Source of the DNA: Granulosicoccus sp.
GTDB taxonomy: Bacteria > Pseudomonadota > Gammaproteobacteria > Granulosicoccales > Granulosicoccaceae
Direction: 5' to 3'
NCBI GenBank assembly: GCA_023301795.1
Contig: JALZVU010000064.1
Coordinates: forward strand, 1 to 52,742
Length of the DNA: 52,742 nucleotides
The notes beneath the pieces are model-generated. The model saw nothing but the letters and a program-made list of their open reading frames with translations. It searched no databases and was not told the DNA's origin. Shown in pieces: positions 18,578-45,587 of the stretch. Position numbers and translations under genes: made by a program. Each line of letters begins with the position of its first letter. Within the stretch, counting starts at the first letter, position 1.

Positions 18578-19285
18578 ATGACATCGAATTCACTCCATAT
18601 AGAACTCCCGCCAGAACAACGCGCCAGCCTAGTCCCCTGGCTTATCGTTGCGGCATGTGCGGCAGTGCTCACCGTTCTACTCAGTCAACTTGCCACCAGT
18701 ATTCCAGCATCTTTGGCGCAACAGGCACAGAGTCGTGTGGACGCACAACGCTTTCCTGATGTTCAGATAGTGGCGAAAGGTCGTGATATGCAGCTCACAG
18801 GCAGCATCCTTGTCGATCAGTCTCCAACTGATCTCATTGATCAAATTCGCAGCGTTGATGGAGTTGGCTCTGTTTTTGACAGTCTGAGCGTCGTAGATCC
18901 GGCCAGAGAAGCCCGGTTACGCGCCGAGCAATTCACTCAAACGCTGGCCAACATCGATGTAGATCGGGTGGCCTTTCAGCCCGGTAGCATTGCTTTTACC
19001 CCTGAGAGCGATGCTGCGTTGGCGCAACTGCTGGCACTACTTGAAGAACACTCGCGAAGTCGCATCCGAATTGAAGGTCATACTGATAACACTGGCCCCG
19101 ATGCTGTCAATTTGCGCATGAGTCGTGATCGCGCCTCAGCAGTTGCCAACTATCTGATGGCCAGGGGCATCGCGGCCGATCAACTGATTGTCACAGGCTA
19201 CGGATCGACCCAGCCTATCGCCAGCAACGACACCGATGAAGGACGCGCCCGTAATCGGCGCATCGAAATCAGCCCTGTCAACTAG
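18578..19285 (+). CDS. Inner-membrane-anchored OmpA-domain protein
   Basis: 235 residues with an uncleaved N-terminal membrane helix (LVPWLIVAACAAVLTVLL), so the bulk is periplasmic. Residues about 60-100 resemble a BON-like alpha/beta unit (VQIVAKGRDMQLTGSILVDQ). The C-terminal OmpA/MotB domain (about 125-235) binds peptidoglycan: it has FQPGSIAFTPESDAALAQLL, IRIEGHTDNTG, NLRMSRDRASAVANYLMARG and a closing RARNRRIEI with the Arg pair that contacts diaminopimelate. The ATG at 18578 has no strong ribosome site. Its neighbours are the coiled-coil protein upstream and the HhH-tailed protein 58 bases downstream. Together they could tie the cytoplasmic membrane to the cell wall. Confidence 0.85.
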   Translation: MTSNSLHIELPPEQRASLVPWLIVAACAAVLTVLLSQLATSIPASLAQQAQSRVDAQRFPDVQIVAKGRDMQLTGSILVDQSPTDLIDQIRSVDGVGSVFDSLSVVDPAREARLRAEQFTQTLANIDVDRVAFQPGSIAFTPESDAALAQLLALLEEHSRSRIRIEGHTDNTGPDAVNLRMSRDRASAVANYLMARGIAADQLIVTGYGSTQPIASNDTDEGRARNRRIEISPVN

Positions 19286-19305
19286 CCTGGATTATTCATG
19301 AAGCC
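19282..19305 (+). repeat. Half-copy of the 43.6-kb palindromic repeat
   Basis: CTAGCCTGGATTATTCATGA followed by AGCC overlaps the stop codon of the OmpA-domain gene and matches 43583-43606 with about four differences in 24 bases. It points to a short interspersed element present elsewhere in the genome. Confidence 0.5.
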
Positions 19306-42486: not shown

Positions 42487-43545
42487 ATGAAAATAAACCG
42501 CAGAAAATTCACAGGTCTAGCCAGCGCAATGGCTCTCACAGCATGTGCCGGACTTTCCATAAGCGGTAGCTGGGCAGCTGATATGCCAGCGCCTTTCGAC
42601 AATGCGGCTGACGTTAAGATTGCTCTGGTGCGATACCTGTCAACCGGTGATTTCTTTCAAGCCTATTTATCCGGCGTCGAGACACAAGCGCAAGCCTTGG
42701 GAGTCGACTTACGCATTCTTGATAGTCGTCAGGATGCAGCCTTACAAGCCGACATGGTGGATCAGGCTATTGCGCTAGGCGTTGACGGCATCATCGTGCA
42801 ACATGGTTTAACCGAATCCATGCAAGACGCAGTTCAGCGCGCTCTTGATGCAGGCATAAAAGTCGTGGCCTTTGACGTTAACGTAGAAAACGAGGCTGTA
42901 CCCCAGGTTGAACAATCCGATAGAGACCTTGCGCGTCTGGCACTCGAGCAGGCGATAAAAGACAACGGTGAGTCCTTTACTGCCGGCTATGTCTACGTAC
43001 CGGGCATTGCCCCGCTCGATCGTCGTGACGAAACATGGAAGGAATTCAAAGAACGCTACCCCGGCATAAAAGAGAAGGCGCAATTTGGCACACTGGATAA
43101 TCCCATCGCAAACGCCAATGCCAATCAGGCAAGATCCGTACTACAGGCCAACCCCGACATCACTGTCATGTTTGCCCCTTACGATGAATTTGCCAAAGGT
43201 GTGAAGATTGCTGTGGATGAAGCTGGTATGAGCCAGGATATTAAAATCTATTCAGCTGACGTTTCAACAGCCGACATCGCTGCCATGCGCGAACCTGATA
43301 GTGCGTGGGTAGCCACAGCCGCAACAAACCCCGCAGTGGTTGGCGAAGTATCCGTGCGGACTCTGGCGATGCTACTGGCAGGCGAAGACCCGGGCGCCAG
43401 CGTCATCGTCCCTCCGACGCTCATCACGCGCGATATGCTGATGGACAGCGACATAAAAAGCATGCAGGACTTGGCAGCCAAACTACCCGCCTTTGCGCAT
43501 GCTGATGTCGCAACGCCAGACTGGATGCCTTTGCCAGCGCGATAG
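42487..43545 (+). CDS. Periplasmic sugar-binding protein of the CUT2 transporter
   Basis: 352 residues of the periplasmic-binding-protein-like I (RbsB-type) fold. The core runs DVKIALVRYLSTGDFFQAYL, VDGIIVQHGLTESMQDAVQR and VVAFDVNVENEAVPQVEQSD. The signal is unusual: NRRKFTGLASAMALTACAG combines a twin-arginine-like RRKF with a possible lipobox LTAC, while a later Ala-Ala (SGSWAAD) offers a normal cleavage site. The ATG at 42487 has AAGGAG 10 bases before it. It sits third in the ATPase-permease-binding protein set. Ligand unknown; the methylthioribose idea comes from gene context only. Confidence 0.88.
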   Translation: MKINRRKFTGLASAMALTACAGLSISGSWAADMPAPFDNAADVKIALVRYLSTGDFFQAYLSGVETQAQALGVDLRILDSRQDAALQADMVDQAIALGVDGIIVQHGLTESMQDAVQRALDAGIKVVAFDVNVENEAVPQVEQSDRDLARLALEQAIKDNGESFTAGYVYVPGIAPLDRRDETWKEFKERYPGIKEKAQFGTLDNPIANANANQARSVLQANPDITVMFAPYDEFAKGVKIAVDEAGMSQDIKIYSADVSTADIAAMREPDSAWVATAATNPAVVGEVSVRTLAMLLAGEDPGASVIVPPTLITRDMLMDSDIKSMQDLAAKLPAFAHADVATPDWMPLPAR

Positions 43546-43585
43546 TTTTTATGTTCAGAGCAGTGCTTAGGTCGTCACCTGCCTA

Positions 43586-43643
43586 GCCTAGACTATTCAT
43601 GAATCCACAGGGACACCCGTCCAGATTCATGAATAGTTAAGGC
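43586..43643. repeat. 58-base near-perfect palindromic element
   Basis: GCCTAGACTATTCATGAATC (43586-43605) faces GATTCATGAATAGTTAAGGC (43624-43643); 18 of 20 positions pair, and the inner loop holds a further GGAC/GTCC stem. The core ATTCATGAAT is itself palindromic. The element lies between convergent genes (binding protein and kinase-aldolase). Related sequence occurs at 19282-19305, and CCTAGCCTGGACT recurs at 43683-43695. It resembles a REP-type interspersed palindrome and may also terminate transcription. Confidence 0.7.
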
Positions 43644-43694
43644 CAATGGCAGTTGATGGCTCACGTTTATCGTTTTTTCGAGCCTAGCCTGGAC

Positions 43695-45587
43695 TCAACT
43701 TGCGCGAACATTATCCCAGACAGCACATAGCGCAGCATAGCGGCTTGTCATTTGTTGGACTGCACCTGCATCATCAATTCCACCTGTCATCCATTGGCGC
43801 GCAGTTTCAGCAAAAATGGTACGGCCTACGGCAAAGCCTCTAACCAGATCAAATTGTGCAGCTAGTGTGTATGTGGCCGCCAGCGCATCGAAAGGCTGAT
43901 CAAGGCCCAGCACAACAATACCGCGAGTATGTGGATCGTTGCGGTTAATGGCATCAACGCAGTTTCGCCATGCTTGTGTTGTTTTCAACGGCTCAAGCTT
44001 CCACCAGTCAGGGTATATTCCGGCATCATAGAGTCGCTGGATAACGATTGATGTGGTGTCATCGTCAACAACGCCGACCTTAGCTGGAATAACTTCCATC
44101 AAGAATTCCAGGTTGTTGCGTCTGGCAGCTGTAAAAAGCCTGTGCAGGGTCGCTTCCTGCGCACTCCACATCGCATCGTCATCGTCCGGGTGGCAGAAGC
44201 ACAGTACTTTAACGACATGGTTCGCAGGCCATTCATTCAGAGCACCAAAATCGACACCCAGTGCAGGTTCTATTTGCAATGGACGCGTGCCGGGAAGTTC
44301 AACCGGGCGACCCACCCACATATTATGGTCTGTGGATTGGTAGAGCGCATCACGACCTAATCTAGAATCGCAAAGCACGCCGTAACCATCACGGCCATCA
44401 GCCACTTGCACGGCCGCTTGCAGGCACAAGGCTTTAAATTGTCCAATTTTGGTATTGTCAGCACCTGGCATTTCTTCGAATTGCAGGCGATGATCGAAGG
44501 CGAACACACGCATCGTTGACCAATCGCCAGAGCGATTGGTGGCCCAGTGAACTTGTTCGAGCTGTGCGTCATGGCGTAGCGCTTTGTCCTTTATCCCTCT
44601 TTCAAGAAAGAACTGTAGTTCGTCCCATGAGGCATACGCCGGTGTGCATCCGTGTCGGCTGACAGCAAACGCACCACAGGCATTGGCATACTTCAAGGCA
44701 ACAGGCCACGACTCACCACCGAGCCAGCCACGTAGCAATCCCGAGAAGAAGCCATCCCCTGCTCCGAGTACATTGAAGACGTCTATGGCGAATCCCGGAC
44801 CGCTGACCCCCTCATCCAGTGAATCAGGGACATCATCTGTGAAGGCAACGGCACCCATAGGGCCACGCTTGCATATTAATGTCGCTTTAGATACCGCTCG
44901 GACAGCACGTAAGGCGGCAATGGTATCGGTGGTGCCTCCAGCTATGTGGAATTCCTCTTCGGTACCCACGATAAGATCAAAAAGATGCAACGTCGCTTGC
45001 AGCTTCTTTGTCACCTTCTCACTCTCGATAAAGCGGCTTTCACCGTCACCGTGCCCAGCAAGTCCCCAAAGATTGGGCCGATAATCTATATCCAGCGCTG
45101 TGAGTTGCTGGTTATCACGCGCAATATTCAGGGCTTTAAGTACAGCGCTTTCGGTGTTGGGATGAGATAGATGGGTACCCGTGACGACGACTGCGCGAGC
45201 CTCGCGTATAAAATCAGGATCGATATCATCTTCACACAGAGCCATGTCGGCGCAGTTTTCACGATAGAAAATCAACGGGAATTGTTCCTGATCACGAATG
45301 CCCAACAGCACCAGCGCTGTAAGTCGTTCGGGGTCTGTTTTCACCCCTCGAACGTCGACACCTTCGCGAACCAACTGCTCGCGTACGAAGCGTCCCATGT
45401 GCTCATCGCCGACTCGGGTGATAAGTGCTGATTTTAGGCCGAGGCGTGCAGAGCCTGCAGCAATATTGGTGGGCGAGCCACCAATATATTTATTAAACGA
45501 GCCCATATCCTCCAGCCGTCCACCGACTTGTGCGCCGTAGAGATCAACCGAAGAACGGCCGATGGTAATGACATCTAATACGGACAT
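43695..45587 (-). CDS. iolC: Bifunctional 5-dehydro-2-deoxygluconokinase / DUF2090 aldolase (IolC fusion)
   Basis: 630 residues in two domains. The N-terminal PfkB kinase (1-325) opens LDVITIGRSSVDLYG, has GGSPTNIAAGSARLGL and the ATP/anion motif NVLGAGDGFFSG at about 273-284, as in IolC, which phosphorylates 2-deoxy-5-keto-gluconate. The C-terminal DUF2090 domain (about 345-630; RVFAFDHRLQFEE, GVLCDSRLGRDAL, EFLMEVIPAKVG) is a predicted class I aldolase thought to cleave the kinase product to DHAP and malonic semialdehyde in inositol breakdown. No other iol gene is present here. AGGAAG precedes the ATG at 45587. It follows the sigma-54 activator gene by 44 bases on the same strand. Confidence 0.9.
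   Translation of the reverse strand: MSVLDVITIGRSSVDLYGAQVGGRLEDMGSFNKYIGGSPTNIAAGSARLGLKSALITRVGDEHMGRFVREQLVREGVDVRGVKTDPERLTALVLLGIRDQEQFPLIFYRENCADMALCEDDIDPDFIREARAVVVTGTHLSHPNTESAVLKALNIARDNQQLTALDIDYRPNLWGLAGHGDGESRFIESEKVTKKLQATLHLFDLIVGTEEEFHIAGGTTDTIAALRAVRAVSKATLICKRGPMGAVAFTDDVPDSLDEGVSGPGFAIDVFNVLGAGDGFFSGLLRGWLGGESWPVALKYANACGAFAVSRHGCTPAYASWDELQFFLERGIKDKALRHDAQLEQVHWATNRSGDWSTMRVFAFDHRLQFEEMPGADNTKIGQFKALCLQAAVQVADGRDGYGVLCDSRLGRDALYQSTDHNMWVGRPVELPGTRPLQIEPALGVDFGALNEWPANHVVKVLCFCHPDDDDAMWSAQEATLHRLFTAARRNNLEFLMEVIPAKVGVVDDDTTSIVIQRLYDAGIYPDWWKLEPLKTTQAWRNCVDAINRNDPHTRGIVVLGLDQPFDALAATYTLAAQFDLVRGFAVGRTIFAETARQWMTGGIDDAGAVQQMTSRYAALCAVWDNVRAS

Follow-up and report, generated by a model that had tools for sequence, protein, structure and literature searches.

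The window analysed here is a stretch of 52,742 nucleotides from a Granulosicoccus sp. contig, and at positions 43586-43643 it contains a palindrome with relatives elsewhere in the same stretch. What kind of repeat is this palindrome, and which enzyme spread it? The initial annotation suggested a genome-wide REP-like family whose mobiliser, a RAYT transposase, would be encoded elsewhere. We conclude with high confidence that the palindrome is an IS1380-type miniature inverted-repeat transposable element (MITE) and regard the window copy as a probable shortened, ageing derivative.

The palindrome and its borders in the window

Of the 20 positions in each arm (43586-43605 and 43624-43643), 18 are paired, as first described. 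The 81-nt region folds with -39 kcal/mol, compared to -15.2 (sd 3.0) for shuffled sequences (z -8.0), and none of 200 shuffles equals it. The window copy is 56 bp in size, has no transposase gene and sits between two convergent ORFs; one encodes a periplasmic sugar-binding-like protein and has its stop at 43545, the other encodes a PfkB/DUF2090 protein and stops at 43695. Sister copies on contigs C18, C194 and C29 share 91-94% identity with it across 46-51 aligned bases. Positions 43587-43642 are better and more natural borders than 43586-43643, with a CTAG adjoining on the left. We assign the following features:

19282-19285, + strand: CTAG, its TAG serving as stop codon for OmpA-domain ORF 18578-19285
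19286-19302, + strand: single end CCTGGATTATTCATGAA; a partner end was not found nearby at the limits used
43583-43586, unstranded: left-hand target site CTAG; the right side reads CCAA (43643-43646), the exact duplication being gone
43587-43642, + strand: probable short MITE of 56 bp, made of two 17-bp ends and a 22-bp interior (locus L006 1497-1552; assigned from sister copies and the fold)
43587-43603, + strand: left terminal inverted repeat CCTAGACTATTCATGAA
43604-43625, + strand: interior, a decayed inner stem of the GGGACGCCC type, a stem also found inside other copies
43626-43642, - strand: right terminal inverted repeat CCTTAACTATTCATGAA
43684-43695, + strand: fragment consisting of CTAG and the first 8 end bases (CCTGGACT), where the convergent PfkB/DUF2090 ORF 43695-45587 stops

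Both relatives pointed out in the initial annotation exist. The 24-base relative occupies 19282-19305 and covers the TAG stop of ORF 18578-19285, and CCTAGCCTGGACT is present at 43683-43695 as written; we take the latter as a fragment of one end rather than a full copy. With up to three mismatches, AGCCTGGACTATTCATGAA has three matches in the window and none in 100 shuffles. The short piece CTAGCCTRGAYT, with up to two mismatches, occurs 11 times in the window (three of them exact) against 8.9 expected, which is not above chance. No Rfam 15 family matched the window and six loci at the gathering score. A search for the empty site of the window copy did not find it and matched the two neighbour genes at separate places.

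Copies in the host genome and their location

The host assembly is a 5.78 Mb draft in 313 contigs and is 97% complete. The exact sequence GAYTATTCATGAA occurs in it 30 times, compared to zero for the reversed control, and the genome-wide arm search that the initial annotation had proposed returned 134 matches to the 20-base arm consensus (up to three mismatches), compared to 4 for the reversed control. Among 98 fetched, partly overlapping loci, inward-facing ends form 48 pairs at loose limits, which include chance pairs such as one of 317 bp enclosing another, and 34 pairs at stricter limits. The listed pairs range overall from 26 to about 300 bp. At the stricter limits, 14 of the 34 are 26 bp in size (two overlapping ends, some of them maybe by chance), and the rest are 45-57, 67-87, 158 and 215 bp. 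The long host copies measure 158 to at least 252 bp. Five of these (C25, C241, C257, C199 and C275) share 96-100% identity where they align, with gaps disregarded; contig ends truncate four of them, which is typical of recent repeats in assemblies. The 158-bp copies align with 160-bp copies from Sedimenticola, Dokdonella and Granulosicoccaceae MAGs. Within 20 longer host copies, the two ends agree with each other in slight excess over shuffling (0.835 vs 0.805; 13 of 1000 shuffles as high).

Near-perfect palindromes of 26 bp lie between CTAG copies at L039 1504-1529, L046 (C44:25384 on) and L248 276-301; these are likely two overlapping ends left as deletion scars. The 26-bp spacing recurs in other genomes (L096; G121, G213 and G319). 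Some long copies have extra small palindromic modules (GACTGCGCGTCCC), twice in tandem at L027 1497-1748 (C257:24010-24261), as if short pieces had been inserted or duplicated inside the hairpin. The internal piece GACTGSGCGTCCC was considered as a separate repeat and rejected (30 matches with up to one mismatch, compared to 17 for the control); we regard it as an internal module, because 12 of its 30 matches lie within loose-limit pairs and at least 5 more lie near a single end.

We then investigated where the copies sit. Under a mechanical gene model (ORFs of at least 100 codons), none of 36 distinct host loci, taken from the top of lists of more than 100 matches, has its midpoint inside an ORF, compared to 27.4 expected for random points. 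The intergenic bias that the initial annotation proposed to look for is therefore evident, and the description of a many-copy family of intergenic palindromic repeats holds, while the REP-like identity that the annotation suggested is not supported. The TAG stop codon of a gene lies exactly within the 4-bp target in 22 of 67 pairs from other genomes and in 5 of 22 own pairs, the other 12 of the 34 own pairs being dropped for fetched stretches that were too short. A pair of convergent ORFs in Dokdonella (L092) terminates within the two target-site copies, one ORF in each. CTAG occurs in the window 53 times inside ORFs, 16 times between them and twice at stops; measured against this small baseline, the copies are likely enriched at stop codons beyond the avoidance of genes. 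Relatives of the element often lie directly at a gene end and seem to do little harm there.

This location, together with a strong hairpin directly 3' of a gene, might also be expected of a host palindrome with a regulatory or processing role (a protein-binding site, a terminator or an mRNA 3'-end stabiliser) and with no history of transposition, and 13 of the 36 host loci do lie within 40 bp of an ORF stop (2.2 expected). However, no terminator-like site was found in 43400-43800, the ends are fixed beside CTAG, near-identical long copies occur at unrelated places, and a relative shows an insertion with an empty site (see below). We give this explanation very little credence, and single copies may later have been co-opted by the host.

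Target site, ends and the candidate transposase

A scan of genome collections found the exact end TAGCCYGGAYTATTCATGAA in at least 116 stretches of other genomes, compared to about two expected by chance from a base-count estimate. In the paired elements among these, which we call outside elements, the flanking 4-mers are equal in 39 of 67 cases (shuffled mean 29.0, maximum 36 in 2000), in a set that is biased by the scan having fixed TAG on one side. Among the non-palindromic cases, the 4-mers form direct repeats in five outside pairs and an inverted repeat in one. Equal 4-mers flank 9 of the 34 host pairs, compared to a shuffled mean of 6.2, which is not significant (150 of 2000 shuffles as high).

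An empty site was found in Nitrospira. In Nitrospira defluvii (L104), a 241-codon ORF ends with ...GGTCTAG and is followed by an element and then by CTAGGCTGAAAC. The orthologous place in genome G039 (L296) reads ...GGTGTAAGCTGAAAC; it is free of the element and has a single 4-mer at the stop. This site could have never been filled or could have been emptied precisely. In G037, the insertion is present at the orthologous site with extra internal sequence, whereas G452, G456 and G453 have no element at the orthologous place, and their flanks diverge before the site. At the family level, a 4-bp YTAR target duplication is observed in the outside elements and the empty site. Nine genomes searched with the Nitrospira locus gave 2 to at least 49 matches each, and most of the matches listed cover the element alone, with 74-95% identity. 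As a separate observation, the Nitrospira copy at the orthologous site (L295, around 2152) has about 66 extra bases inside its hairpin.

The 17-bp ends of the host MITE are CCYGGAYTATTCATGAA beside CTAG, and nearly the same ends beside YTAR bound IS1380 genes in a cyanobacterium, an Armatimonadetes and a Deltaproteobacteria MAG. The filamentous cyanobacterial locus (L075), one among the at least 116 stretches, encodes a 449-aa IS1380 transposase (NF033539, 9e-111; PF13701, 2e-129) flanked by CTAG|CCTGGATTATTCATGAA and TTCATGAATAATGCAGG|TTAG. In the 20-base sequence of target plus end, the Armatimonadetes locus (L302) has one mismatch at one end, none at the other, and CTAG at each side, the Deltaproteobacteria locus (L298) has 2 and 2 with the + strand 4-mers TTAA and CTAA, and a Nitrospira locus (L301) has 2 and 3 with CTAG on both sides. 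Both ends have up to three mismatches in three of nine IS1380 loci of end-bearing genomes. For the rest of the nine, both ends of L299 have five mismatches, L300 and L304 have one end, L202 has one at six mismatches, and the scan of L203 and L303 found no matching end. Equal YTAR 4-mers also flank each of six IS1380 elements on plasmids, which were picked from 40 listed among 699 records, in a ranking of end pairs that favoured equal 4-mers, that placed the L283 pair second and in which the ends of L281 and L284 match weakly. Within the genus, two of seven IS1380 loci (L182 and L184) have equal YTAR 4-mers, and the IS1380 ends differ from the MITE end mostly at 4-5 of 17 positions. By sequence comparison, the family shares its terminal inverted repeats with IS1380 insertion sequences, the match being close in some IS1380 loci only. 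We filed the window element as an IS1380-type MITE because IS1380 loci elsewhere carry these ends beside YTAR.

The PF13701 and NF033539 profiles have no match in the host assembly, a 97% complete draft of 313 contigs. Above-cut-off IS1380 genes exist in 6 of 27 genus genomes and the exact end in 8 of the 27; the two occur together in 2 genomes, close to the 1.8 expected by chance. Of 56 distinct end-bearing genomes, 10 contain an above-cut-off IS1380 gene. We did not treat the absence of a partner in the same genome as disqualifying, since such a partner is usual and not required, the genomes are drafts, and a genome may lose its partner. An unrelated transposase that likewise targets YTAR, with ends that resemble those of IS1380 by coincidence, would account for the missing full IS1380 gene in the host and in the other 46 of the 56 end-bearing genomes, and for the lack of co-occurrence in the genus. 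However, nearly the same 17-base end beside YTAR accompanies IS1380 in at least three phylum-level groups, and we consider such a coincidence very unlikely.

REP and REPIN sequences are dispersed intergenic palindromes, and the RAYT gene that moves them is flanked by copies of the repeat; they are not known to produce a target-site duplication. The present family resembles them in its many short, dispersed intergenic palindromes, and Y1_Tnp (PF01797) genes do exist in the host, with four matches at three loci (C166, C88 and a broken one at G000:C177:4026-4375). Near the C88 gene there is also a degenerate end-like site beside CTAG, with 5 of 17 mismatches (L061 1254). However, the fetched flanks of the Y1_Tnp genes (about 1.5 kb, except for one C177 flank of about 1.0 kb) contain no copy of the end with up to 3 of 17 mismatches, the best candidates having 4-5. 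Unlike REP sequences, outside copies of the family are flanked by 4-bp direct repeats, and a relative shows an empty site; the ends of the family are common to DDE-type IS1380 elements and stay fixed in copies as long as 252 bp or more. We consider it very unlikely that a RAYT (Y1) transposase is the mobiliser, and the RAYT proposal of the initial annotation is abandoned here in favour of a mobiliser, IS1380, that can be tested.

In the IS1380 explanation that we prefer, an IS1380-family DDE transposase, either resident or transient, would recognise the 17-bp ends CCYGGAYTATTCATGAA and cut at their CCYG termini. The host copies are inferred to have been moved by such an enzyme. The element would insert into CTAG, or more loosely YTAR, with duplication of the 4 bp. 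An insertion at a stop codon would keep the stop of the neighbour gene, because CTAG reads TAG on either strand and a copy of it comes to flank each side of the element. This suggests a way for a repeat to fill a genome with little damage. Long copies would then lose their interior stepwise, down to the 26-bp palindrome; the interior would be deletable because TTCATGAA is itself palindromic and hence occurs at the two ends as a direct repeat. The window copy is probably a remnant of this kind, presumably near-neutral for the host.

Hairpin conservation, distribution and related elements

The paired elements outside the host come under 11 phylum-level labels, judged by record titles: Pseudomonadota groups, Nitrospirae, Planctomycetota, Deltaproteobacteria or Desulfobacteraceae, Acidobacteriota (Pyrinomonadaceae), Eisenbacteria, Verrucomicrobia, Lentisphaerae, Zipacnadia, Krumholzibacteriia and Binatota. 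Their sources are mostly MAGs, apart from Planctomycetes Pla86 and Dokdonella immobilis. In size, 39 of the 67 outside pairs are 158-183 bp. In the host phylum the element is distributed patchily, being present in 18 of the 398 genomes sampled; 16 of these belong to a single taxonomic family.

We then aligned 24 elements, namely 23 of 42 oriented ones and the second element of L165. Seven Nitrospira near-duplicates, seven of the 160-bp class and the five worst aligned were left out, a choice that favours a common structure. For 26 of 27 RNAalifold pairs (one lone pair dropped), 92.1% of cells pair, and 74 cells are changed on both sides, compared to a shuffled mean of 22.5 (0 of 500 as high) and 10-21 in slid controls; the structure is derived from the same alignment, and these statistics ignore relatedness. 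In 33 elements, the inner arms match with a mean of 0.68 within an element, compared to 0.56 between elements and 0.59 for shuffled letters. A core like GTACTG-loop-AGTACGCCT (up to three substitutions) is present in 24 of 50 elements of at least 140 bp, compared to 0.7 by shuffling, and 15 of these 24 come from Nitrospirae-labelled records. Of eight elements folded singly, five fold strongly (z -4.9 to -10.6) and three weakly (-2.2 to -1.6). The agreement of the stems could come from selection on the fold or from one arm repairing the other. With comparable ends and a covarying hairpin occurring under so many phylum labels, it can be asked if selection acts on the fold as such. Tentatively, and with more doubt than confidence, we speculate that the 160-180-bp parents are one ancient family across many phyla, in which an asymmetric hairpin (GTACTG-loop-AGTACGCCT, with flanking CTGCTGCG and CTCGCGACG) is kept by selection on the folded strand as a travelling structured RNA or a single-strand DNA signal, and that CTAG stops serve it as a safe-harbour strategy.

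Like the IS1380 family (NF033539 / PF13701), the present elements have ends that start with CCYG and adjoin CTAG or YTAR, but the window element lacks a transposase gene, and its 56 bp compare to about 1.6 kb for an IS1380. A table in the accessible part of PMC3281130 gives a 5-bp repeat for IS1247 of the IS1380 family, while 4 bp fits the present elements. Correia, QMITE2 and Chunjie MITEs, as described in the accessible text of PMC10969869, are likewise short, non-coding and intergenic, with inverted ends, target repeats and many shortened copies; unlike them, the present family is tied to IS1380 ends and has many phylum labels and covarying stems. The Chunjie MITE, being of similar size, could by analogy be a relative. 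MITEPye1 of Paracoccus yeei (PMC11578231, in its accessible part) is likewise a MITE that combines IS-like ends with a long hairpin, but the IS family that these ends resemble is IS1182. No description of an IS1380-derived MITE was found in the literature searched, in which subscription papers are mostly not included and which covers accessible parts of PMC11578231, PMC3542288, PMC9330008, PMC3281130 and PMC4133298. The accessible literature on Nitrospira and MITEs gave nothing on the present element, and searches with exact sequences gave unrelated titles among the matches listed. MITEs as such are known; in the same partly accessible literature, we found no IS1380-derived family this broad, with covarying stems and stop-codon sites.

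A complete 189-bp paired element is also present at L179 1054-1242, in a contig of a viral collection (IMG/VR), and such a viral contig is a possible vehicle between hosts.
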